Below, one piece after another: positions 7,387 through 22,655 of a stretch of 22,655 nucleotides of DNA. The notes beneath the pieces were generated by a model. The model was not told where the DNA came from, did not search any database, and saw only the letters and a list, made by a program, of their open reading frames with translations. Every line of letters starts with the position of its first letter. Position 1 is the first letter of the stretch. The position numbers and the translations under genes were made by a program. This stretch comes from a virus. The stretch is taken from positions 1-22,655 of the IMG/VR virus record IMGVR_UViG_3300020185_004102; one strand, given 5' to 3'.

Positions 7387-8307
7387 ATGGCGCGACCGTT
7401 TCTTAGATTTGAAGATGGCAAGATAACCTTGAATAACAAGGATCTTATGGTAAACTCTGCCAGCCTTTCGATTTCTCCATCTTTGCAGGTTGAGCGAGTT
7501 TATGGTGATTATGATGCGCAAATCGCGGGCGCTCGAACTGAGTTTGTTAATTTTGCTCCAACTCAAAATCTACAAGGACAATTGAATATATCATTTTACA
7601 TGTCTGCAGATACAGTTTCTCCTAATAGTGTCAATAGGTTGTTTGAATTATTAGAGGTTGCGGATCCAGGAAATGCAAAAAGCTCAATTAGTGAAGCTCC
7701 AATAAATGGAAATGTTGTGGGTAGATATAGTTTTGATAATATGTTTTTAACTAGTTTCAATCTCAAGCTTGAGCCGTTTCGCTTGATTGTTGCTAATGCA
7801 TCATACAATATATACGGTACAATAAATCGAACAGTTGATAAATATTTTACTCAATCAGATGTTGATTTCGCGCATGCACTAAAATCTTTTGGGGAAGTAA
7901 AAATAAGCAACCAAGCAACTGACGAAGAATTTGAAGTGAAAAGCTTGAGTTACAGCATCAATGTAGAACGTAAGATATCAAACAAAATAAGAGAAAATGA
8001 AAATACCGCGATTAATACATATGCTGGTGGAGCACTTCCGCATCGAGTTAGCGTGGAATCAATAACCTCTGAGGTTAATATAGAAGGTAATGAAATGGCT
8101 GAAAATTTAAATCCTTATGGCGACCAACAAACATCTTCTTCTCCATTTGGAATTGATGATTCTCTGGTGGATATATTTTTATATAGTCTTGGTGGCGAAA
8201 GAATTTCCAGATTGCATTGCGCAGGAAAAATACAGAATCAATCGATGAATATCGCAGAAGGTTCTCATGCAACAAGCTCGATCACAATAAAACAAATAAT
8301 CAAATAA
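7387..8307 (+). CDS. Putative tail-tube-like / distal tail protein (paralogue 2)
   Basis: This 306-residue, beta-rich protein starts 2 nt after the previous stop. Residues 1-145 resemble the N-terminal half of its upstream neighbour: a V/L-N strand near the start, an LQGQLNISF strand, and an ANASYNIYGTI strand. Residues about 170-306 form a second domain beginning EVKSLSYSINVERKI, with the FSYSRSINV-like strand also seen in the neighbour. This two-domain plan is compatible with tail-tube or distal-tail rings, but the family is not recognisable by eye. Its TAA overlaps the next ATG (TAATG), so translation of the two is probably coupled. Confidence 0.55.
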   Translation: MARPFLRFEDGKITLNNKDLMVNSASLSISPSLQVERVYGDYDAQIAGARTEFVNFAPTQNLQGQLNISFYMSADTVSPNSVNRLFELLEVADPGNAKSSISEAPINGNVVGRYSFDNMFLTSFNLKLEPFRLIVANASYNIYGTINRTVDKYFTQSDVDFAHALKSFGEVKISNQATDEEFEVKSLSYSINVERKISNKIRENENTAINTYAGGALPHRVSVESITSEVNIEGNEMAENLNPYGDQQTSSSPFGIDDSLVDIFLYSLGGERISRLHCAGKIQNQSMNIAEGSHATSSITIKQIIK

Positions 8308-11300
8308 TGCAAAATCTTACAAACATATCCAATTATATTGGTGATTATACTCCTGGCGTGGATTATAAAAAATTTGATTTTGTTTTTAATAAAGTAGATA
8401 GTTTATATTATTACGCGAAAGATGATATAACTTGGAGTGATGAATTGATTAATACTTTTGCGAATCGATACTCGCTCGATCCTTCTGGACCTCTATATGC
8501 TGGAGCTCAAACATATTATCTTTTTGATGCGCACAATGATATGTCTGATTATAAAATTGGACAAACCATAAACATTGGTGGGTCACTGTATGAAAATGAT
8601 GGTAATTTTAAAATATTAAACATAGAAAGTAATTACAATCCAAGTGCAATAAAGCCTGGAGATTATGTGCTTTCTGAAATATTGAATGGGGAGGAAGGTG
8701 TGAGTGATTGGTTTTTGTCTGACTGGTTTTTGTTGGATCAAAAAGATATTTATTGGCCTGGTCGAGATTTTGCTGCGTATGTTGATTCCAATATTGATTT
8801 ATATAATGCATACGAATCTAGCGACAAAACTTTAACGAAAGAAGCTTGGGGTAGACAACATTACAATACATATGGCGAAACAGAAAATAGGGCAGTTCCT
8901 TTGAATGAAAGAGGGAATTGGATATACCATACAAAAATAGGCTGGGTTTACACTTCGATTAAAGGTAATTTTACTCCTTCCGACAAGTCTCTATGGATGA
9001 ATATCGGCGGGCTTGATGATATGTGGTTTTTTGCCAAAAAAGATTGGACCGATGGAAACAATGCTGTATTGTATTACGAAGATTCAGGAAGAGAGGAGTA
9101 TAGCTATGAAATAACCAGCGAAAATAAATCATTTGATTCGGATACTCGAGAAATTGATGTTAGTGATGATGGTCAATTTTTAATTGCTAGAGACAATTCT
9201 TCAATAAAAAGGTATGCAAAGAATGGTGATACCTGGATTGAACAAGCATCTTTGGATTTTAATGGGGAATATAGATATTTGTGTTGCGACGGGGATTGCG
9301 ATACAATCGCTGTTTTATCTTATGATGACAATTACTACACTTTAAACACTCAAATGCTTCAAGAATATAAAGTGCATTATGATTATAATAGTGGACCGAG
9401 GGCTAGTATATATCTTTCTGTTGTACTTGGATTACCATGGAAAACAGAAAGCGGCCCACTAACAAATAGTCAATTAGAAAACTTTGAGTCTATCAGTAAT
9501 TTAAAATACGCCGGAGATCTTAAAATTTATAAATACAACTCTTCTGCGAACGCTTGGGAGGAATCTCACTCAATATCACAAATTGTAGAACAAAACTTGA
9601 TCGCAAATTTCAGTAAAAACGGTAATAATTTATTTGTTTTTGAACCTCACTCTCACGAATATAATCATTACAAAAATGGATTGCTCACTTGGCGTAGGCA
9701 ATGCATGAGAGTTTTGGCTTTTAGTGGATCTGTGTGGGAAGATGAATTGATTATGGCAGGCACAAATTACGGAAATTTTGTTGACAATAAGGAATATTCA
9801 TATGATGAACATGGATATTCTCAATCACTGACAATACACTTCAAGACTTTTGATAATAATACTTACGGTTCTGATGTGAATGTTTTATATTTTAATAGTC
9901 ATTTTGTTGCTGATCAGTTTTCTGAATATTCTTCTTCAAAGCAAGTTTATGGATCAGGATCTTTTTGTGCTAGAATGTCTGGAGATGGAAATAGAATATT
10001 TTATATCGACCATAATACCAATAAAATAAAATACATAACGCGCTCTAATTCTGGAAACTGGTTTGATAATATTGGAGAAGTTACTATGGGTGGTGATGTT
10101 TATGAATATGAGTTTCCTGATTTTCCGCTACCAATTAACGAAATAAATTTCAAAGCAAAGCAAACTGGTTGGGGCTCTAGTTCAAGAATGAATCTCGAGG
10201 TAAATTTCGATGGTTCTACTGTTGTTGCTTATGGGGCAAAAAAATCTAGTTATGAAAATTTGTGGAATGATTTCACTCAACAATATGAACGATTCGAAAA
10301 AGTCACAGAAAAAACACTTGTTTATGTCAATAATTCTTGGAAGGAAATAGATTTAAATATAAGAACAGAAAATGTATACAATACGGTTGTTAATGATATT
10401 CAATTAAGCAGAAGTTCCACAAGTCGCTTGCGAGCCGCAACGATTATGAGTAGAGAAATTAATCCAAAAAGACATTATGACTTACAATATATAATAGGTG
10501 GAATTTCTGATGCAAGTATACCTTTGAGTGATCTAAATTTGACTAGTGAGCGTGGGGGATTTAATAATGCTTGCTTGTCTATTTTTGAACTAAATGACAA
10601 TAACGAGTGGATTCAGATTGGCGAATTTGATAGAGAATCTAAATCTATTGATTTTGCGGTAGACGAGAATATTGATCATGTTTACAATTTAAAATTTGAT
10701 ACTTCAGTCTCTGGGCAAAATAGTTTATATAAATATACGGTCGGATATTTTAAATACTATACTCTTGATAGTGAGGATGGGTTCATTTATGTACAACCAT
10801 CATCAACAAGCGATGATCTTTTTGATTTTTATGAAGTCGACCAGCAAACATGGTTTACATTAAAAAGTGACAAAAAAATAATTCAAGCTGCAAATCAACA
10901 AGCCCAGCCTACTATAAATATAAATTTTCAACAAAATGAAGCTCCTGCACTCAATGTGGGGCAAGATTTTGGCACAAGAGTATGGTTGGTTGGCGCTTCA
11001 AATAATGATTCAATAACACAACTAGAAGATAAATCCGATAATGAAATAACATTAACTTCGGCGAATACTAATCCAGGTGTTGATTCTCCAGATTGGATAT
11101 CCGATGTTTTTTTCTTTGATGCAGATTATGGATCAAGTGTTACATTTACATGTCAAAATAAAAAATATGAATATTCAGATGGATATTATATATATCAACC
11201 AGATAGCATAAATTCATTGAGCGCCGAAATAACATTATTGTTTAAAAATAGATCAAGCAGAGAAACAAATGCCGTGCTTCATTTTGTTGAGAGTCACCTG

Positions 11301-12848
11301 GGTCAATATGATAAAGATAGGCCATCCCCAAATCTAAAATATAGTCAGGGTATTGCCGGATTTAGGTGGGGCGGAGAGTCAACATTTCATCCTTACGATT
11401 CGACAAGTATGCAGTCTAAAACATTTTATTGTTTAAGCTATGATCATTCATTAAATTTTGAAGATAGTAATGATTTAACTGTTAAGTTGAATAACTTTAA
11501 TACTTCTTTGTTGAATAAATCTGAAGAATTGTTTGTAAAGCGCGCGAATGATTATTCTGACACAAGATATTATGAAAAAAATGATGTTGTTTTTGTTAAG
11601 GAAAATCACCAGCATTACTATTATAAAAAAGAAGATTCTGGTTTTGGGGCTTATCCAATATCAAGTAAATCAAGCTCTTGGTCAAGAAGCGGTGGGTACT
11701 ATCAAGATATAAACACAGATTCATGGACTAGAGATTTCTTTTGGAAACCCTCTTTGGGGCTAAAAATTTCAAACAATCCAAGACTTAAGAAATTGAATCT
11801 TAATGGTCCTTATACTCAAATATATCGAGACGGAATAAATGAAAAACTATTAAACATAGATTTGGAATTCAATAACCGAGATGATCAAGAGGCATATGCT
11901 ATACTTCATTTTCTTGAACATCATTATGGATGCATTCCTTTTGCTTTTAATGTTCCTGTGCCTTACGAACAAGATAGAAATTTTGTTTGCCAAAAATGGA
12001 CTCACACCTACAATTTTAAAAATAATCATAGTATAAAAGCAACTTTTGAAGAATACCCTTTTAAATTAAGCGCTCAAAAATATGATTCTTTGATAACCGA
12101 GCCAATACTAAGAGAGTCTGAGCTGTCTATGCCTTCATCAATAATTTTTGAAGATAGTATTGAAGCCTTGAGAAGGTCTAACTTATTTAAAAAAAGAGTG
12201 TTTTTTAAAAATGTAGGAGATAAACCTTTAAAGATTAAATCCATGCAGATTATTGAATCAGAGTTTGATATTGTTGGTCAAGATGAAGATTCTTCTGAAG
12301 CCGTAATGTTACTAGAGAAAGATAATGATATTGATTATGTTTTGGTATTACCCCCCGGTTCTAATCTCCCTTTTGGGTTGAATAATCAAACAATTAGAAT
12401 ATATAAACAATATTCTGATGGAGTTGCAGGGGGAACTTCTTTTAGTGTTGTTCAAGAAATTAATGGTTCTTACCAAAGAGTATCAATTGATGGCTCGCCA
12501 AATAGGTTTTTCCAGAGTAATGCCGGTTATATTATGAATTTAAATACTGGGGAAATTAGTGATACATATGCAGGATTTATTGATGATTTATTGTTCAAAA
12601 ATAATAGAAATAAATATCTTTCTGGATCTTATATTTCTTTGAATGCTGGGAAGACGGGGTATATTGATATTTATTATAATGGATCTTTGCAAGAACTTGA
12701 TTTTTATGATTCTTTAACTGATGCTCAATTTATACAAGTTATACAAGCACAAAAAAGTTTCAATGGAAAACTTGAAATTGTCGTTGAAAATAGTAATGGC
12801 ACAGAACAAACTTTAAGTTCAGATATACAAATAAACCTACAAAAATAA
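8307..12848 (+). CDS. Giant gpM-like minor tail protein with propeller-like and accessory modules
   Basis: This is a 1513-residue tail-tip protein. The frame extends upstream to 8217, but ATG 8307 in TAATG is the likely start; earlier codons only re-read the previous gene. Order: a short Tyr-rich CBM-like segment (residues 10-41); a DLYNAYESS to YGETENRA module (about 166-200) like repeats in extracellular bacterial proteins; a WIYHTKIGWVY motif (about 210); a diverged beta-propeller-like stretch (about 277-690) with repeated S.DG....A and Y....W patterns; two M domains (929-1070 and 1139-1255); and an Ig-like end domain. The second M domain (RDGINEKLLNIDLEF, then ILHFLEHHYG, then FVCQKW) matches the lambda gpM family, whose prototype has only about 110 residues. 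Role inferred: tail-tip assembly around the tape measure end plus surface binding. Confidence 0.75.
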   Translation: MQNLTNISNYIGDYTPGVDYKKFDFVFNKVDSLYYYAKDDITWSDELINTFANRYSLDPSGPLYAGAQTYYLFDAHNDMSDYKIGQTINIGGSLYENDGNFKILNIESNYNPSAIKPGDYVLSEILNGEEGVSDWFLSDWFLLDQKDIYWPGRDFAAYVDSNIDLYNAYESSDKTLTKEAWGRQHYNTYGETENRAVPLNERGNWIYHTKIGWVYTSIKGNFTPSDKSLWMNIGGLDDMWFFAKKDWTDGNNAVLYYEDSGREEYSYEITSENKSFDSDTREIDVSDDGQFLIARDNSSIKRYAKNGDTWIEQASLDFNGEYRYLCCDGDCDTIAVLSYDDNYYTLNTQMLQEYKVHYDYNSGPRASIYLSVVLGLPWKTESGPLTNSQLENFESISNLKYAGDLKIYKYNSSANAWEESHSISQIVEQNLIANFSKNGNNLFVFEPHSHEYNHYKNGLLTWRRQCMRVLAFSGSVWEDELIMAGTNYGNFVDNKEYSYDEHGYSQSLTIHFKTFDNNTYGSDVNVLYFNSHFVADQFSEYSSSKQVYGSGSFCARMSGDGNRIFYIDHNTNKIKYITRSNSGNWFDNIGEVTMGGDVYEYEFPDFPLPINEINFKAKQTGWGSSSRMNLEVNFDGSTVVAYGAKKSSYENLWNDFTQQYERFEKVTEKTLVYVNNSWKEIDLNIRTENVYNTVVNDIQLSRSSTSRLRAATIMSREINPKRHYDLQYIIGGISDASIPLSDLNLTSERGGFNNACLSIFELNDNNEWIQIGEFDRESKSIDFAVDENIDHVYNLKFDTSVSGQNSLYKYTVGYFKYYTLDSEDGFIYVQPSSTSDDLFDFYEVDQQTWFTLKSDKKIIQAANQQAQPTININFQQNEAPALNVGQDFGTRVWLVGASNNDSITQLEDKSDNEITLTSANTNPGVDSPDWISDVFFFDADYGSSVTFTCQNKKYEYSDGYYIYQPDSINSLSAEITLLFKNRSSRETNAVLHFVESHLGQYDKDRPSPNLKYSQGIAGFRWGGESTFHPYDSTSMQSKTFYCLSYDHSLNFEDSNDLTVKLNNFNTSLLNKSEELFVKRANDYSDTRYYEKNDVVFVKENHQHYYYKKEDSGFGAYPISSKSSSWSRSGGYYQDINTDSWTRDFFWKPSLGLKISNNPRLKKLNLNGPYTQIYRDGINEKLLNIDLEFNNRDDQEAYAILHFLEHHYGCIPFAFNVPVPYEQDRNFVCQKWTHTYNFKNNHSIKATFEEYPFKLSAQKYDSLITEPILRESELSMPSSIIFEDSIEALRRSNLFKKRVFFKNVGDKPLKIKSMQIIESEFDIVGQDEDSSEAVMLLEKDNDIDYVLVLPPGSNLPFGLNNQTIRIYKQYSDGVAGGTSFSVVQEINGSYQRVSIDGSPNRFFQSNAGYIMNLNTGEISDTYAGFIDDLLFKNNRNKYLSGSYISLNAGKTGYIDIYYNGSLQELDFYDSLTDAQFIQVIQAQKSFNGKLEIVVENSNGTEQTLSSDIQINLQK
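9136..10370 (+). other. Diverged beta-propeller-like repeats in the gpM-like protein
   Basis: The region reads as repeated units of the form S-x-D/N-G-x-x-[IVL]-x-[AVF], later Y-x-x-x-x-x-x-W. Examples are DVSDDGQFLIARD followed by IKRYAKNGDTWIEQ, LIANFSKNGNNLFVFE followed by FSGSVWED, ARMSGDGNRIFYID followed by NSGNWFD, and EVNFDGSTVVAYGA followed by YVNNSWKEID. This is the pattern of FG-GAP/WD-like propellers that I recall from environmental phage structural proteins. The blades are strongly diverged and the blade count is uncertain. Confidence 0.5.
11091..12074 (+). repeat. Tandem duplication of the gpM-type domain with an inserted aromatic module
   Basis: Copy A (11091-11519) and copy B (11721-12074) align by eye. 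DWISDVFFFDADYG aligns with SWTRDFFWKPSLG, the strand LSAEITLLFKNRSSRE with LLNIDLEFNNRDDQE, VLHFVESHLG with ILHFLEHHYG, and TFYCLSYDHSLNF with NFVCQKWTHTYNF. Copy B keeps the family signature better; copy A carries a Gly-rich insertion after HLG. Between them (11550-11690) is a short Tyr/Trp module, YYEKNDVVF to YYYKKEDSG to SSW, of the CBM5/12-like kind. Confidence 0.7.
12147..12848 (+). other. Split Ig-like (ASH/HYDIN-type) C-terminal domain of the gpM-like protein
   Basis: The segment KRVFFKNVGDKPLKIKSM followed by a SEFDIVG strand resembles the first half of ASH/HYDIN-type Ig domains (v.F.N.G..pL.I). The matching last strands, SLNAGKTGYIDIYYNG and GKLEIVVENSNG, appear only about 110 residues later. 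The insert between (about 12360-12610) holds a Phe/Tyr-rich segment with VSIDGSPNRFF. The assignment is by pattern only. Confidence 0.4.
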
Positions 12849-14288: not shown

Positions 14289-17200
14289 GTGAATAAGGTA
14301 TATCTACATGGTGGCCTCGGCAAGAGGTTTGGTAAAACATGGCATGTTGCTGCAAACAATTCTCAAGAGGTTGTTCAGGCAATTGATGCCAATGCAGATG
14401 GTTTTGTTGGATATATTGTAAAGCAATCTCTTGAAGGAAACGAGCATTATTTACTTGCAAAAGATCCCAAGCAAATAAAAACTCAGGAGGAACTAATTGA
14501 CAACATGGTTGATCCCCAAAAATTGTCAAAAGAAATACACATTGTACCAAGCATATATGGAGGGTTTATTGCAGGCTTCCTGGGAAAATTTGTCATCGCA
14601 AAAGTGGCGGGCGCAATGTCCGCCGCAATCTGGGGGGCTGTTGCTCAATTGGCTATCAGTGCACTCATGAAAACTCCAGAAGACAAGGTGCAAACACGAG
14701 GAGAAAACGTTTCAACAAAATCATTTTTATTGGGCGCATCAAGAGAAAGTGCGAGTCAGGGAGGTTCAATACCTCTTGGGTATGGCCGCGCTTTTGTGGG
14801 TCCAAACTTGATTGGGCAATCAATGAAGACAACCAAAATAAAGAGCGATTATTTAGAATCTTCCACAGAATTAACATTCACCCACTTGATATCCGAGGGT
14901 CCAATTGAAGGTCCTGTTAATGAATATGGGAAAAATGTTGATGCATGGGAGACAGATACAAATAATCAAATCAAACCAAGTAAAGAAGTTCAGCGCGCAT
15001 TGTATATAAACGAAAATCAACTGCTGAAGGGTGAATTTTATAATTACAACCTGAATGAAGAAGATGCGCTTCCGGTTTTAAATATTGACCCAAAAGAATC
15101 TAAAATATTAAGCAATTACTCTTCGTTTATCTACACATATGGACAAGAACTTTTTGGAGCTTCTCCATACTTTTCTTCAGATAATACCGCTAGAACAACT
15201 CCTGTTCTTACGATAGAAGAGGCTTTAAAGGAGGCTACAATATTTTCCCATAAAATTTCTAATATAGACACAAGTCAAGTAATTTTAAATATAAGAGCAT
15301 CTATTTTTGAGACTGTTCAGGAGACAGGAAACAATAGAGCTGATGAAGTATTTTTCGCTGTTTTTGTTGTACAGGATAATGGTACTCGAGTGAATGTGCT
15401 TGATGCTCCTGAGTTTTGCTCGGTTAGAATGGATGCCTCTGGTGTATTAACTGATCAAGATGGTAATTTCTTGGGAGTTTCAAAAACCGGATCTAATAGT
15501 TTTAAAATTAATGGAGTTGCAACTTCTGCTTATCAATTTGAGCTGGCTATAAATTTTAAAAAAGAATTCAAATCAAAAACACCAACAATTCAAATTGTAA
15601 AATTAAGTAAAGAGCTTGATACTGCGGCGGCTTCAAATGTTTTTACTCAGTGGCAAACAACAAAAAAAAGATTATTCAGTAAAAAAGTTAATACTCACAA
15701 AAAAACTGACTGGAATAGCGTTGGTGGGCAGGGGAGAAGTAGAAGTTTAATAATTGCCAATATAGAAGAAAGAATATATGCTCAATTACTTTACCCAAAT
15801 TGTGTTACTTCGTCTATCAAGATTGATAGTTTGAACTTTTCAAATCAACCGACCTTTATGTGGCATTTAAAATTAAAAAAGGTATTGATTCCAAGTAATT
15901 ACGATCCAGTTGCAAGAAAATATTACGGGCCGTGGAATGGTCTATTCAAGGGACAAACTAGCGTGGCGGAATCAATATATTCTATACCTGACTCACAAAA
16001 GCGTTGGACAGATAATCCTGCTTGGGTGTTTTATGATCTTGTTTCTAATCCTACATATGGCTGCGGGAAATATGGCGTAGAAGAATTTGATATTGATAAA
16101 TGGCAATTGTATAAAATAGCAAAATATTGTGACGAATTGGTTGAAACGAGTTATTCAATACAAACTGCTTCTGGCTTGCCATATAGTTTTGAATATCAAG
16201 ATACTGGTAACTTGACGGCAGTTGAGGGCGAAAAGTATTTCAGTATAACGATAGATGAAAAACATTATTACAAGCAATCGGGCGGATTGATTTCACAGGA
16301 ATTGACCAACGAATCATTTCAAAAATATTATGAATTTAATAGTCCAGGAAATTATAGTTTAACTGTTCCAGAGGGGGTTAGATCGGTGACTGCTTTTGTA
16401 GTTGGCGGAGGCGGTAGCGGTGAGCGCATCGGATTTAATGCGCCTAGTATTAATTTTGCAAATAAGGACACTCTTTTATATACAAACGTCAATGGATTGA
16501 ATGGGCAAGCTTCAAGTTTAAGTTCTAGTGGTGGTTTGAATATTGTTGCTCATGGAGGATTAGGTGGAGGCAGAAATGATTATGCTAACAGTGGAAAAAA
16601 TACAATAAATGGAGCATCAAAAGTCAATTCTCAAATTCTGGGATTTGCATCAAACGGAAGAGGTGGAGCAAGTAGAATTTCAAGTAGTGATAATTTTGCT
16701 ATTGCTGGCGCCAAAGGTTCTAATTTTGGACCTAAGGGGTCTTCTAGTTTAAAACCATCATATGGAGCTGGAAGTGGAAGTGGTTCTAGGATAGTATCGT
16801 ATTTTTTCCCATTTAAAGGTGTGGTAACTACAGAAATAAAATCTGTAGATTTGCTTGGTGGGGGATCTGCCGGAGCATCTTTATGTGAAATAAATGTTGA
16901 TGCTGGTCAAGTTTTGAATATAACTGTTGGTTCTGGCGGAGCAGCACACAGTGGAGTAGGCGCTGGTGGATCTGGTAAGGTTACTATAATTTATAATATA
17001 GAAGGTTTAACTTCTCTAAGCGCTGAGGAGCAATTTATTGATATGTTTGGAGATGGAGAAAGTCATAAAGGCAAGTCTGTTGCATTTTTTATAAACAAAC
17101 ATTCGCACCAAAATAACGCCTCTAATTTTATTCAAGACATTAAAAATAAATCTGTACTGAGGGAAAATATCTCTATCGAGCGGCGACAAATAATAAGCTC

Positions 17201-19589
17201 CAATTCAAAAACACGTCAAGTAACACTGTCTGGAGAACATTTCGCAAGGCACCCATCTTCTTTTGAGTCTGACGGGAAGATAAGATTATATGGAGCTTGT
17301 GCGGCCGAAAAAGATTATCCGCTTATTGAACCAAGGTTCTCTGCGAATCTGTATCTAAGAGATTCTGTAAACTCAATAAATATTTTAAACATGTTTGGTA
17401 ATTTGTTTAGATCAAGATTGTGTTATACTTCTGGCAAAATCAGTTTGCAGCAAGATTCAAAAGTTTTACCCATTCAGTTGTTTAACAATACAAATGTATC
17501 CAGCGAAGGGTTTATGTATTCTGGTTCACAGAAAGATCAAAGATTTTCTGTTGTTAAAGTATTGTTTAATAATAAGGAAAATGAATTTCAAGATGAATAT
17601 GTTTATGAAGAGGATGCGTCGGCAATACAAAATATAGGAATTATTGAAACAGAAATAAATGCATTATCAATTTCTTCTGAATCTGAGGCAAGAAGGTTTG
17701 CTAAGTGGATATTGATGAGCGCTCAATACGAGCAGGAGGTTGTTAAATTCACAACTGGGCAAGAAGGGGCTTACGCGTTTCCAGGGGCTGTTATAGAAAT
17801 ATTTGATGAAATGAGAAGCGGAAATCTTAGATCTGGAAGAATTTTGGATATCATTGAAAATGATTCTGATAATGGTTCATATTTTGTGATTGATAAGTCT
17901 ATATTGTCAGAACCTCTTCTTGGTGATATAGAATTTACTGTATCAACTGGCGCGGATCATACAACAATTGATAAAATTGAATCGCGCGCTAAAAATGAAA
18001 AATCTACTACCGATCAAGATGTTGAAATTGATAACGTGAACTCACAACAATTGTTGAAATTTCAGGCCAGAATCATTCCCAATCAAGATGAATCTAAATC
18101 TAATGTTGTTGATATGGCTGTAAAGATGCAATTTACTATATCAGAGCATGAAAAAAAGAGTGAACAAGATGTAATTAAAAACACAAGAATAGAAAAGGTT
18201 TTTGAGGTTTTTTACCACGGATTTGAAGATGGTGATAAGGTGAGGTTCGCAAGTGATGGTATACTGCCTAAGGGTATCACTCCATTTGAAGAGTATTATA
18301 TTATTGATTCAACAAAACATTCTTTTAAGGTTTCAAAAACACAGTCTGGATCAGCTGTAAAAATTTTTGGACAAGGAAAAGATAAGTTGTTTAATGTTGG
18401 TGGTGAGCATTTTGTGATTCCAGTTGATACAGAAAAAACAAAAGAAAAAATAGATCAGGTTATGATTGGCGCAATATATTCTATTAGAGGAGATATTGGT
18501 GTGATCGAAAACAATAAACAGGATATCTCTTTAACGCAACTGCAAAATCTAGGCGTATCCAATTCGATATCTGATGATTGGATGAGTTCGAGCATTTTTG
18601 GTCAAATGAAAATTGTTGATCAAAATTGGATATATGCCAGAAATCTAGGGTGGATTTACATAGGAGACATGATCGACAAGTCGGGAACTCCAGGTGAATA
18701 TTTCTGGTTTTATACTGGAGCTTTTGGGTGGGTCGGCACAAATGAAATATTAAAAAATACAATATGGTTTATTCCGTCTGTTAAACAAAATAAAGATGGC
18801 GCCTCTGGTTTTGTTAATATAAAATACAGCGGATTTTCTGGTAACATATCAAATATGTTTGTTTATTACGATTCGGTTGATAATGTAAATCAAGATGATC
18901 AAACATTTAATCTTGGAAGTTCAAATAAAAAACTAGGTCGATTGTGTAATGTTGAATTTATTAATACAACTGGTATCTTGGGGTACATGTTGAATATTGC
19001 TGATTCGATTGAGCCTGAGGTTAATCTTGTTGCATCATCTCATTCCGAATTAATGAGTCAAGATAAATATGATGAAATTAGTATAGAAAGTTCTAGAATT
19101 GTTGATGTTGGACAAGCTTTGCAGGAAAAACAGTCTGTACAATTAAATATCATTAATAATCTTGAATTTGATTTGACGCGAAATTATAATATGTTTATTG
19201 ATGGAGTAACAGGAATAAATTCATCGTTAATAAACAAAACATGGAATTTTATATTTGTGAATGAAAATACAATTGAACTTGTTGACTCTGAAGATATTTA
19301 TACATTGAATGCTGGTTTCAATTTTGATCAAGCAAATTTTTACTTGGTTGCTGAGTTTGATAGCGATCTTAAGAAGTTCATTGAGGCAAAATATTTTAGA
19401 ATTTTAAACAATAAAGAAGTTGCTAAGGGAAATTATGAAATTACCGCGACAGAATATGCGGTTGATAAATTCGATGCTATTGATAAAAAAGGTGTAATCA
19501 GGAAACCTGTAGTTCCAATTCCACCTCAAGAAGGTATGGAGGTTCCTGATGGGCCAACAAATTTAGTATTAAAAAGTTCCACAATATAA
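14289..19589 (+). CDS. J: Fused tail assembly protein I and tip attachment protein J
   Basis: This 1766-residue protein joins two genes that are separate in lambda. Residues 1-180 are gpI-like: a ubiquitin-like start (VYLHGGLGKRFGKTW), a hydrophobic segment near 93-127, then SQGGSIPLGYGRAFVGP at about 157. Residues 190-620 follow gpJ (LISEGPIEGPV, then YPNCVTSS, YYGPWNG, WTDNPAWVFYDLVSNPTYG, IAKYCDELVE). A glycine-rich insertion occupies about 681-904. gpJ resumes at about 1012 with EPRFSANLYL, then SSESEARRFAKWIL and FTTGQEGAYAFPGAVIEIFDE. Later come two HG..DGD-V-type beta modules (about 1308-1377 and 1615-1690) and a WIYARNLGWIY motif (1446). It ends in VPDGPTNLVLKSSTI, the first strand of an FN3 domain. 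Role: binds tube end and host receptor. Confidence 0.9.
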   Translation: MNKVYLHGGLGKRFGKTWHVAANNSQEVVQAIDANADGFVGYIVKQSLEGNEHYLLAKDPKQIKTQEELIDNMVDPQKLSKEIHIVPSIYGGFIAGFLGKFVIAKVAGAMSAAIWGAVAQLAISALMKTPEDKVQTRGENVSTKSFLLGASRESASQGGSIPLGYGRAFVGPNLIGQSMKTTKIKSDYLESSTELTFTHLISEGPIEGPVNEYGKNVDAWETDTNNQIKPSKEVQRALYINENQLLKGEFYNYNLNEEDALPVLNIDPKESKILSNYSSFIYTYGQELFGASPYFSSDNTARTTPVLTIEEALKEATIFSHKISNIDTSQVILNIRASIFETVQETGNNRADEVFFAVFVVQDNGTRVNVLDAPEFCSVRMDASGVLTDQDGNFLGVSKTGSNSFKINGVATSAYQFELAINFKKEFKSKTPTIQIVKLSKELDTAAASNVFTQWQTTKKRLFSKKVNTHKKTDWNSVGGQGRSRSLIIANIEERIYAQLLYPNCVTSSIKIDSLNFSNQPTFMWHLKLKKVLIPSNYDPVARKYYGPWNGLFKGQTSVAESIYSIPDSQKRWTDNPAWVFYDLVSNPTYGCGKYGVEEFDIDKWQLYKIAKYCDELVETSYSIQTASGLPYSFEYQDTGNLTAVEGEKYFSITIDEKHYYKQSGGLISQELTNESFQKYYEFNSPGNYSLTVPEGVRSVTAFVVGGGGSGERIGFNAPSINFANKDTLLYTNVNGLNGQASSLSSSGGLNIVAHGGLGGGRNDYANSGKNTINGASKVNSQILGFASNGRGGASRISSSDNFAIAGAKGSNFGPKGSSSLKPSYGAGSGSGSRIVSYFFPFKGVVTTEIKSVDLLGGGSAGASLCEINVDAGQVLNITVGSGGAAHSGVGAGGSGKVTIIYNIEGLTSLSAEEQFIDMFGDGESHKGKSVAFFINKHSHQNNASNFIQDIKNKSVLRENISIERRQIISSNSKTRQVTLSGEHFARHPSSFESDGKIRLYGACAAEKDYPLIEPRFSANLYLRDSVNSINILNMFGNLFRSRLCYTSGKISLQQDSKVLPIQLFNNTNVSSEGFMYSGSQKDQRFSVVKVLFNNKENEFQDEYVYEEDASAIQNIGIIETEINALSISSESEARRFAKWILMSAQYEQEVVKFTTGQEGAYAFPGAVIEIFDEMRSGNLRSGRILDIIENDSDNGSYFVIDKSILSEPLLGDIEFTVSTGADHTTIDKIESRAKNEKSTTDQDVEIDNVNSQQLLKFQARIIPNQDESKSNVVDMAVKMQFTISEHEKKSEQDVIKNTRIEKVFEVFYHGFEDGDKVRFASDGILPKGITPFEEYYIIDSTKHSFKVSKTQSGSAVKIFGQGKDKLFNVGGEHFVIPVDTEKTKEKIDQVMIGAIYSIRGDIGVIENNKQDISLTQLQNLGVSNSISDDWMSSSIFGQMKIVDQNWIYARNLGWIYIGDMIDKSGTPGEYFWFYTGAFGWVGTNEILKNTIWFIPSVKQNKDGASGFVNIKYSGFSGNISNMFVYYDSVDNVNQDDQTFNLGSSNKKLGRLCNVEFINTTGILGYMLNIADSIEPEVNLVASSHSELMSQDKYDEISIESSRIVDVGQALQEKQSVQLNIINNLEFDLTRNYNMFIDGVTGINSSLINKTWNFIFVNENTIELVDSEDIYTLNAGFNFDQANFYLVAEFDSDLKKFIEAKYFRILNNKEVAKGNYEITATEYAVDKFDAIDKKGVIRKPVVPIPPQEGMEVPDGPTNLVLKSSTI
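16329..17000 (+). other. Glycine-rich receptor-binding-type insertion in gpJ
   Basis: Residues about 681-904 begin YEFNSPGNYSLTVPEGV, followed by AFVVGGGGSG, which is the common opening of glycine-rich tail adhesin domains (F..PG.Y..tVP.GV..v...vvGGGG). The body is rich in Gly, Ser and Asn (GGLGGGRND, GAGSGSGS, GGGSAGASL, GAGGSGKVTI) and closes with a VTIIY strand, also typical. It interrupts gpJ between the CDELVE segment and EPRFSANLY. It may be a variable host-range element. Confidence 0.7.
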
Positions 19590-19590
19590 T

Positions 19591-22500
19591 ATGTCTACAT
19601 CGATCACAGTTGAGTTTCAGGTAAATGACCTTGATGCAAATTATGAAGTTGTTGGTACTTCTGATAATTATTCATTTCAAGAAAAGATTGGATTAGGTTC
19701 AGATATTGTTTTTGCTGAGGGAGATGCTTTTGTTAAAGTTATTCCCTTGAGGGGAAATTATGGAATATTTGATGTACGAGTTTTTGCTGTAACGGAAATA
19801 GGGGTTCGCTCTCCATCGGTCATTGGAAGAATAGAAGTATTACCAAAAGAACTTGAAGGCACTTTTACATTTTCAGAAATTAATACAAATCAAAACCTTG
19901 AGTCGTCCGTTATTTATTCTCCAACATATGCTGGAGACAAGCTAGAGATTGATTGCGAATTTGGTGGCAAATCAATTGAGTTTAATTGGTCTTTAATTCC
20001 CCCCAATGGACATCCCCAAGAGGGAAATTCTTTATCCACAGAGTTGTTGAGTGATACTTTTTTGTCTGGTTTTAAAATAAATTTGTTTAATGACGGTCAA
20101 ATCATTGATCTCGAGCAAGCGAGTTATTCAGAAACTTCTCTCGCAGCTTTATCTTCGACCCTTCAGACAGAAAAAGAAAATGTCCAGGATATATTTAATA
20201 ATTATAGAGACTTTTCTTTAAGATTGAACGAGGCAGTTTTTAATGATTTGAATTTATCGAGAGATATTTCTTTGCAGATTATTTCTGTAGATAGATTTGG
20301 TGGAGAATCTACAGGCATCGCAAATGCTACAAATTTAGAACCAGTCATAAGTAACCTGAATTATTCAACCAAGGGTTCTGACACAAGTTTTTCATGGGAG
20401 TCTACAGATGCAGATTTTAAAGATGTTAAAATTGAGGTTTTGGCTATACCCGAGGGAACTTCTTTAATTCAAGAAGAAGACCTTCAGGCTAGCGCAAGTT
20501 ATTTTCAAGCTTTAAAACAAGCGAAACCATACAATGATTTCGCAGGTGCATATTATACCGCCGGGGATAAAGTCGTTTATAATGGAAAAATATACGAAGC
20601 AATTCAAACTCATACGCGAGGAAACAATGAATATCCAGATGATGATTTTGAAATCGATGAGCAGACCGGAGAGGTGATTGAGGGCGTTGCAAATTGGGCA
20701 TTAATTGGTGACGCTATAAATTTCTTGTATTTCTCAAGTAATGACCCTGATGATGATTTGGGGTTAAAAAATATAAACGAAGATGATACATTAAAAAATG
20801 TTGAAATATCAGATGATTTAAAAACTTTTAGTGCTACACAATTGTGGGGATATAAATATTATTACACTTTTCAGCCTTATGATGAATTTGGTGAGGGTAA
20901 AGTATACAACCTGACAAAAAAAGGATTGATTGATAAAAATGCAGATGATTCAATATTAGAACCAATATTGGTAAATGTAAAAATTGATAATTTAAGATTC
21001 CGCGAAGTTAAAGACGATCTGGTCTTCAATTGGGATGCAACTGATCAAGACGGAAACCTAGTAGACTTGAATCAATATAAATTTTTGTTTGGCGGGCAAG
21101 ACTTTCCTTCTCTTCTTGGTATAAGCGGTTCACTGTATGATGTTCATACAAATCAAAAAATAACAGGAATAACAAATGGATTTAATTCCAAAAGTTTGGA
21201 TTTTGATGAAGATGGAGATCTTGTTGTTAATTCAAATCTTCCAAGTGCAAAGGTGTTTGATCAATACAAATATACGCGCGAATTAAATAATAGCATATAT
21301 AAGACTGGCGGATTTCCTTCTGATTTCGGAGACTATGATACATCAACAAATTATGTTTCTGGTGATAATGTATTAAGTGATAATAAAATTTATACTGCAA
21401 ATACACAAAACAATGAACAGTCTCCAAATGTTCAGCCATATTATTCTGGCTGGTCTTCATCTCAAACATATTACGCTTCCTCCTCTGACGCATTTAATTA
21501 TAGAAATAATATATATAAAACAATAAACGACTTTGGTCCAAATTCATCTAATATATCAGGGTTGTTTAATGAGGGCTTGGTTTATAATGTTGGGGATATT
21601 GTATTGTCTCCAGAAAGTGATGTTTCTGTGTTTAGCGAAAGTGATTCGTACGTTCCTGGAGATTTTGTTTTTTATAATGGTTCAATATATGAATGTCTGC
21701 AAACAATCGCAACCGAAGAAAATGCGTTTCCTGATAATGCTGATTTTTGGTCGCGCTTAGATATATTTAATGATCTTACATGCGCTTATTTTCAATCAAC
21801 TGCAAATAGTAATTCTAGTTACCCTTTTGATGTTTCAAGCAATTGGAGCAAAGTAAATCCAGCTTCTTTAGCTGCAAATGGGCAATTTTTTGAATTTTTG
21901 ATACCAGCTTATGAGTTGCCTGTTTCAGATTGGAGCTCGCAGGATTCATATAATGCAGGAAACTTTGTTGTTTATGAAAATGATATATGGAGCGGTACTC
22001 AATTTAGCCAAAATCAAATTCCATCTGAGGGTTCAAATTACTGGAGTAATCAATCGAATTCTCAGGATATAGGATTATATTCAACATATTATTCAAGAAA
22101 TTATCAATCTGGTGATTTGGTTTATAGTAATAACTTTGTATATAAATGCACAAGAGATGACCCTGCTGGCGGCCCAATAACAGCCATAACAAATGAAGGA
22201 CAATCAATTTTATCAAGCTACGAGCAAACAAATTGGTTGCCATATTGGGAACTGAATGATCAATATGATAACATTGTATTTAAGCATGTTGGCATTCCTC
22301 AAAGTGGAAAAAGGAGTGTTGGTATAGAGTTGGGTATTGTTGATAAAAACGGAAGAATAATAAATCAAGCAAATCTTCTTGCTGACAATCCGCCGCCATA
22401 TATATTGACCGAAGGATTTGATGTTGATAGCACGGGCGAAGCAACAAAAGTAAAATTTAATTTCAATTACGCATTAGGATTTCAAGAAAAAACAACAAAA

Positions 22501-22655
22501 GTATATTTGTATAGATCTGAAAGCCCTGATTTTGATGTTGTTGATGAATACGGATTTCCTTTGACCGGAGAAAATACTCCGTTTGTAAAAAGTGTTGTTG
22601 GCGCAGGGGATGCAACATTTGGACAAAACATTACACAAATAATTGACGAGCCTCC
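19591..22655 (+). CDS. FN3-like adhesin with multiple CBM-like modules, 3' end outside window
   Basis: The frame is open from ATG 19591 through the right edge for 1021 codons. Start: ATG follows the gpJ stop after one base (TAA-T-ATG), with no Shine-Dalgarno. Residues 1-85 read as the rest of an FN3 domain whose first strand ends gpJ. Further FN3-like segments begin near 250 (PVISNLNYSTKGSDTSFSWE) and near 453 (VNVKIDNLRFREVKDDLVF), each ending in strands such as YYYTFQPYDEFGEG and RSVGIELGIVDKNGR. CBM5/12-like modules (Y..GD.V.Y...Y....P...W) lie in their loops at about 317-374, 581-621, 622-661, 682-723, 781-820 and 830-886. No signal peptide or membrane segment. Position after J and composition suggest a host-contact tip protein; a role as central tail fibre extension is inferred. 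Confidence 0.8.
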   Translation, partial: MSTSITVEFQVNDLDANYEVVGTSDNYSFQEKIGLGSDIVFAEGDAFVKVIPLRGNYGIFDVRVFAVTEIGVRSPSVIGRIEVLPKELEGTFTFSEINTNQNLESSVIYSPTYAGDKLEIDCEFGGKSIEFNWSLIPPNGHPQEGNSLSTELLSDTFLSGFKINLFNDGQIIDLEQASYSETSLAALSSTLQTEKENVQDIFNNYRDFSLRLNEAVFNDLNLSRDISLQIISVDRFGGESTGIANATNLEPVISNLNYSTKGSDTSFSWESTDADFKDVKIEVLAIPEGTSLIQEEDLQASASYFQALKQAKPYNDFAGAYYTAGDKVVYNGKIYEAIQTHTRGNNEYPDDDFEIDEQTGEVIEGVANWALIGDAINFLYFSSNDPDDDLGLKNINEDDTLKNVEISDDLKTFSATQLWGYKYYYTFQPYDEFGEGKVYNLTKKGLIDKNADDSILEPILVNVKIDNLRFREVKDDLVFNWDATDQDGNLVDLNQYKFLFGGQDFPSLLGISGSLYDVHTNQKITGITNGFNSKSLDFDEDGDLVVNSNLPSAKVFDQYKYTRELNNSIYKTGGFPSDFGDYDTSTNYVSGDNVLSDNKIYTANTQNNEQSPNVQPYYSGWSSSQTYYASSSDAFNYRNNIYKTINDFGPNSSNISGLFNEGLVYNVGDIVLSPESDVSVFSESDSYVPGDFVFYNGSIYECLQTIATEENAFPDNADFWSRLDIFNDLTCAYFQSTANSNSSYPFDVSSNWSKVNPASLAANGQFFEFLIPAYELPVSDWSSQDSYNAGNFVVYENDIWSGTQFSQNQIPSEGSNYWSNQSNSQDIGLYSTYYSRNYQSGDLVYSNNFVYKCTRDDPAGGPITAITNEGQSILSSYEQTNWLPYWELNDQYDNIVFKHVGIPQSGKRSVGIELGIVDKNGRIINQANLLADNPPPYILTEGFDVDSTGEATKVKFNFNYALGFQEKTTKVYLYRSESPDFDVVDEYGFPLTGENTPFVKSVVGAGDATFGQNITQIIDEP
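20539..22248 (+). repeat. Array of CBM5/12-like aromatic modules in the adhesin
   Basis: At least five, perhaps seven, diverged copies are visible: YYTAGDKVVYNGKIYEA to NWALIG (20539-20712); NYVSGDNVLSDNKIYTA to YSGW (21331-21453); SDAFNYRNNIYKT (21454-21573); SYVPGDFVFYNGSIYECL to DFWSRL (21634-21759); a half copy SSYPFDVSSNWSKV (21820-21852); SYNAGNFVVYENDIW to NYWSNQ (21931-22053); NYQSGDLVYSNNFVYKC to YWEL (22078-22251). The consensus Y..GD.V.[YF]...[IV]Y....P...W is that of small chitin-binding-type modules. Copies are too diverged to be recent DNA duplicates. Confidence 0.6.

Follow-up and report, generated by a model that had tools for sequence, protein, structure and literature searches.

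The window analysed here, a 22,655-nucleotide viral stretch from IMG/VR, encodes part of a tail-tip protein of the lambda J type in which small modules with a CBM5/12-like fold lie inside FN3-like domains rather than between them. The larger set, an array of about 330 amino acids placed before the last two strands of the fourth such domain, is present in some relatives and wholly missing from others, and its modules are inherited vertically rather than swapped. By likeness to the CBMs of the evolved Dit and Tal proteins, we favour a reading in which the array would serve accessory, avidity-type adhesion while the distal end of the fibre decides the host, and we give this reading a probability of about one half.

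A lambda-J-like protein with inserts in its FN3-like domains

The window carries a tail-tip gene set of the lambda type, comprising the tape measure, minor tail proteins, gpL-like and gpK-like genes and a gpI-J-hub fusion (14289-19589), followed after a 1-nt gap by the ORF at 19591..22655 on the plus strand. Profile searches recovered the J family (phrog_31, central tail fibre J, E=1.1e-88) as well as PF13550, PF05100 (gpL), Prok-JAB (gpK) and phrog_32; a hub domain, a J-family match and the L-K-I-J gene order are hence all found in the window, and FN3 domains before the fibre are indicated by the Foldseek matches described below. In gene order, hub domain and FN3 domains preceding the fibre, this set resembles lambda gpJ (8iyk, PMC10721106, PMC11101478), and the ORF at 19591..22655 encodes that half of a lambda-J-like protein of the tail tip which comprises the FN3 domains and the central fibre. 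Unlike lambda gpJ, J is here split over two ORFs, the gpI-like part being fused to the hub half and the FN3/fibre half starting at 19591, an arrangement also seen in the relatives that were looked at. Two further observations concern the upstream ORFs. In the hub ORF, the PF13550 match is preceded by a stretch of about 228 aa that is rich in glycine (20%; 16323-17006), and the ORF at 8217-12848 (1543 aa) shows a gpM-like Phage_min_tail match at residues 1174-1279 only, behind a long N-terminal part, in addition to a weak BppA/CBM_4_9_1 match below the cut-off (E=0.017).

The ORF at 19591..22655 is open at the contig end; it reaches 1394 aa on another contig of the same phage, and its complete homologues measure about 2000-3200 aa. 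A natural gene end at this point is ruled out, the contig stopping at an assembly or recombination junction: the last bases of the window (22653-22655) coincide exactly with a mosaic junction at residue 1021, where the DNA identity of the same phage (L015) to L016 and L017 is 58-87% upstream and 96-100% downstream. Two contigs of the phage stop at the junction base, and among contigs that carry its upstream sequence just one was found that runs past this base. The junction reflects either a chimeric assembly or recombination among phages that occur together. Searches with the ORF returned no match in INPHARED and no relative among 84,980 prokaryote species scanned at one genome per species, and thus no provirus or host link; Rfam and tRNA scans yielded nothing. 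The phage family is uncultured and mostly marine.

Pfam FN3 finds no match by sequence in this ORF. When the FN3 domains were compared with one another by profile, inserts excluded, all matches were weak (at best 14.8% probability, E=0.0018; the strand-F match of the second domain to the fourth is likewise weak), and because of this weakness strand equivalence between the domains is not claimed from it. The second FN3-like domain (FN3-2; residues 91-245, 19861..20325, on the plus strand like all features given below) is delimited by alignment, and a non-CBM, partly helical-looking segment precedes its last strands. For the following domains, AF2 models were obtained of window residues 246-985 (740 aa, 25 input sequences, pLDDT 78.3) and of the counterpart region of L058, a relative whose array site is empty (374 aa, pLDDT 79.4), the strand letters being taken from DSSP order and not from inter-strand pairing. 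FN3-3 begins with strands at 20326..20460 (residues 246-290, containing WESTDADFKDVKIEVLAIP; model residues 10-16, 19-25 and 31-42) and ends with strands at 20842..20925 (QLWGYKYYYTFQPYDEFGEG...; model residues 176-186 and 194-203). The insert at 20461..20841 carries module M1, with its CBM5/12 core at 20530-20712, and the model places M1 after the early strands of this domain and before its strand F. FN3-4 comprises strands A-E with the short helix RELNNSIY (residues 455-570, 20953..21300), then the array (residues 571-898, 21301..22284), then strands F and G (22285..22383, HVGIPQSGKRSVGIELGIVDKNGRI...; model residues 665-673 and 678-686), the last forming a conserved block in 12 sequences. 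Its strand order, namely early strands, short helix and last two strands, is identical in the filled model of the window and the empty one of L058.

The sequence-only reading had proposed that the modules sit in FN3 loops, citing four strings that all lie in frame where it had placed them in the ORF (WESTDADFKDVKIEVLAIP at residues 269-287, YYYTFQPYDEFGEG at 423-436, LNQYKFLF at 493-500 and RSVGIELGIVDKNG at 908-921). The predicted structure agrees, since the array falls between the helix and strand F of FN3-4 and not between complete domains. The boundaries nevertheless required correction: the array starts not after LNQYKFLF (residue 500) but after RELNNSIY (residue 570), because residues 501-570 are kept in relatives without the array; further, the interval 20539-22248, although it does hold modules, is not one block, as host-domain strands at about 20842-21300 split M1 from the array.

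Foldseek searches point in the same direction. The empty L058 model has the lambda tail tip 8iyk_F as its top match (E=1.2e-4, probability 1.00), along with FN3 pairs; its empty FN3 pair thereby matches lambda gpJ, a protein with FNIII-1/2 and a central fibre. For the filled model, the matches are Vibrio chitin oligosaccharide deacetylases with CBM12-type domains (probability 0.96-1.00), together with numerous proteins from phages that are annotated as CBM5/12 or as chitin-binding type 3 (best viral E 1e-16). TM-scores are low for both models because these are long chains of small domains.

Relatives lacking the array or a single module

IMG/VR scans with the full alignment as query yielded 53 loci, and more contigs were gathered with a bait made of the last strands of FN3-4 and the start of the next domain, which selects neither for nor against the array. 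The entire array is missing as one block from five phages in two clades, L058, L059 and L072 on the one hand and L110 and L113 on the other. In these, FN3-4 runs directly from NNQIHG or NNSLYG into ESGKRS or GGKRS, i.e., the strand-A-to-helix part is joined straight to the strand F/G part. Additionally, a single module of the array, Mf, is missing alone from five representatives, again in two clades (L045, L050 and L105; L048 and L055). The comparison of relatives thus bears out the earlier proposal that gain or loss at the loop involves entire modules. In an unrooted tree, without an outgroup and inferred solely from columns of the host domain, both absences fall in two clades each, and constraining the five array-less rows to one clade costs 58.5 log units (AU p=0.025). 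Loss of the array is favoured in L058, L059 and L072 because they are nested in the tree; for L110 and L113, the tree having no outgroup, the absence may reflect either loss or a gain elsewhere.

These natural empty sites bear directly on whether there is an insertion at all. That the modules are tandem small domains strung between two complete domains would fit their contiguous, tandem arrangement and the loose, low-scoring Foldseek alignments of the multi-domain models; however, the direct joining seen in the five array-less phages and the unchanged strand order of the filled and empty AF2 models contradict it for the array, and we consider it very improbable. Judged from the alignments, the array is a true loop insert with a host domain that closes with or without it, and is optional for that reason. 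The insertion of M1 in FN3-3 is a prediction of the model, because no relative lacking M1 was found: the module occurs in all relatives aligned over that insert.

Membership of the modules in the CBM5/12 family

The fold proposed for the modules by the sequence-only reading was recovered by both sequence and structure comparison, the whole protein matching PF02839 (CBM5/12) with E=4.2e-20 (71.9 bits against a cut-off of 26.2). Two stretches of the window exceed the cut-off (20542-20625 and 21634-21720) and two are weaker (21931-22044 and 21334-21426), M1 and Md being the only modules individually above it. The M1 stretch matches PF02839 with E=6.3e-10, and M1 matches the chitinase A1 ChBD (1ed7) by phmmer with E=0.0022. 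An HMM of the family was seeded with its M1, Md and Mf, whose recovery by it is circular and was not counted; it also recovers the non-seed modules Ma, Mg and, weakly, Mb, and thereby adds modules at residues 621-654 (weak) and 830-856 to the PF02839 stretches.

The array had been read as six equal modules. They are indeed CBM-like units, but resolve into five recognisable modules and two that are half-modules at best. Ma (21322..21444) matches PF02839 with E=4.7e-4 and the family HMM with an iE of 3.4e-5. Mb (21445..21555) is truncated and lacks the final Trp, with a family HMM iE of 0.019 that becomes 3.6e-8 in L024. The half-module Mc (21562..21636) has a weak HMM match (0.084) and strands at model residues 425-435. 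Md (21634..21762) exceeds the PF02839 cut-off with E=7.1e-8. The half-module Me (21766..21858), a C-terminal half, is delimited by alignment, its HMM iE of 5.4 not being significant. Mf (21922..22056; PF02839 E=6.7e-5) is the unit missing from the two clades noted above, and Mg (22084..22260; family HMM iE 1.4e-5) has a long loop before its W-x-P...W end.

Comparison with the chitinase A1 ChBD and a Vibrio deacetylase (4ny2) shows the shared pattern Y-x-x-G-D-x-V-x-Y-N-G-x-x-Y...W, and the core aromatics of CBM5/12, the Tyr of the YxxG start and the final Trp, are found in the modules, the latter being kept in M1, Md, Mf and Mg and absent from Ma and Mb. Unlike in known CBM5/12 domains, with core and surface aromatics distinguished as in PMC8449059, the exposed aromatics that bind chitin are missing from nearly all modules. 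At the reference Trp column, in a reference sequence confirmed by search output over residues 6-29, M1, Ma, Mb and Mf show either a gap or residues that are not aromatic, and Md shows no aromatic residue apart from one Phe; Mg alone has a W-x-P that may be equivalent. The description of the modules as sugar-binding-like is therefore apt as to family but not as to the ligand-contact residues, whose loss from most modules makes chitin an unlikely ligand for them. They may instead bind another glycan, or no sugar at all.

Vertical inheritance, the distal fibre and a putative accessory role

The modules are inherited vertically: in 99 of 105 cases the nearest relative of a module is the module at the same position in another phage, which rules out position shuffling, and array distances track those of the host domain (r=0.80). 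Divergence is faster in the modules, at a mean distance of 0.66, than in the host domain, at 0.51, and dN/dS of the array in close pairs is 0.08-0.49, which is above most host segments and below 1, thereby ruling out diversifying selection on the array.

The sequence-only reading had suggested that the loop might be a reception site for exchangeable binders, by which host range could diversify. Both the whole array and individual modules do come and go as units, and extra YYDxDFFYvxTxxGWKR repeat blocks have been added inside module loops in L025, L027, L029 and L052. However, the positional orthology, the tracking of host-domain distances and the low dN/dS argue against exchange, and no unrelated binder replaces the array among the 43 sequences compared. 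Moreover, near-identical phages retain the array and differ elsewhere: L048 and L049 show full identity across the array and as far as about residue 1350, but only 46-60% over residues 1501-2100, and the same retention of the N-terminal half with a differing distal part is seen in L045/L047, L047/L050, L035/L057 and L058/L059. We therefore regard exchange at the loop as unlikely, the distal C-terminal fibre being the more probable place for a switch of host range.

Another account holds that the array is a structural decoration, its CBM5/12-like units having lost sugar binding and offering surfaces for packing, spacing or docking, either towards other proteins of the tail tip or between J protomers. 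The retention of core aromatics with loss of ligand-contact ones in five of six modules, the half-modules without a full fold, purifying selection and the fixed order and position of the modules would all suit it. Against an essential role in assembly stands the complete absence of the array from two clades with an intact host domain, and the faster divergence of the modules is as in exposed surfaces; a purely structural role is possible, but not what we would expect.

The accessory adhesion that we favour would work as follows. About seven units of CBM5/12 fold would be displayed from two FN3-like domains, M1 in the third and the array, an optional decoration that probably faces outward, in the fourth. 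If J forms trimers, a virion would bear three arrays with up to about 20 units, which could make many weak, reversible contacts to surface glycans, while the specific contact that decides the host would be made by the distal end of the same fibre. The closest known systems are the evolved Dit and Tal proteins of siphophages of Gram-positive hosts (PMC7291167), Oenococcus phages included (PMC8540738), which likewise carry carbohydrate-binding-type modules on a conserved tail-tip scaffold with a proposed role in accessory adhesion, inserted into loops in the case of evolved Dits as they are here. In evolved Dits, the CBMs borne on loops recognise the host that is also bound by the true receptor-binding protein, but their affinity for it is lower (PMC7291167). 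The scaffold in these proteins is the Dit galectin or the Tal hub, with BppA/CBM4-type domains set in a loop of the galectin; here its place is taken by an FN3-like domain from the fibre half of J, which bears small tandem CBM5/12-type units.

Tail-tip loops decorated with CBMs are thus already known, as are inserted domains in gpJ, lambda gpJ having an FNIII-A in its HDII-insertion domain (PMC10721106). In contrast to the CBM-like inserts of the FN3-like domains here, the passages on lambda that were consulted describe no CBM array. In the literature searched we found no description of a removable CBM5/12-like array in an FN3 domain of a J protein, though one may exist. The natural empty sites show that a lambda-type J can carry such an array, and the concept of evolved Dit and Tal proteins thereby reaches the J fibre of phages whose tail genes are of the lambda type. 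These observations would also separate two roles, that of an accessory array close to the hub, which is stable and inherited, and that of a distal tip, which changes fast, and they yield a concrete prediction as to which part of the fibre sets the host range of these uncultured phages.

More speculatively, and with considerable doubt, J-type FN3 domains could have a general insertion site in the segment that precedes their strand F, one that allows nesting, with modules in the FN3 loop and further repeats in the module loops (L025, L027 and L052). If so, branched adhesins would be built on a fixed scaffold in this family. The repeat blocks of L025 (6832-7254 and 7642-8034) match no Pfam family above the cut-off.

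The distal fibre ends themselves differ in kind: L058 (9992-17419) has a Peptidase_S74 chaperone end, and L016 (10001-16399), like L018 and L022, has GGGxxN-type repeats that look YadA-head-like by eye only.
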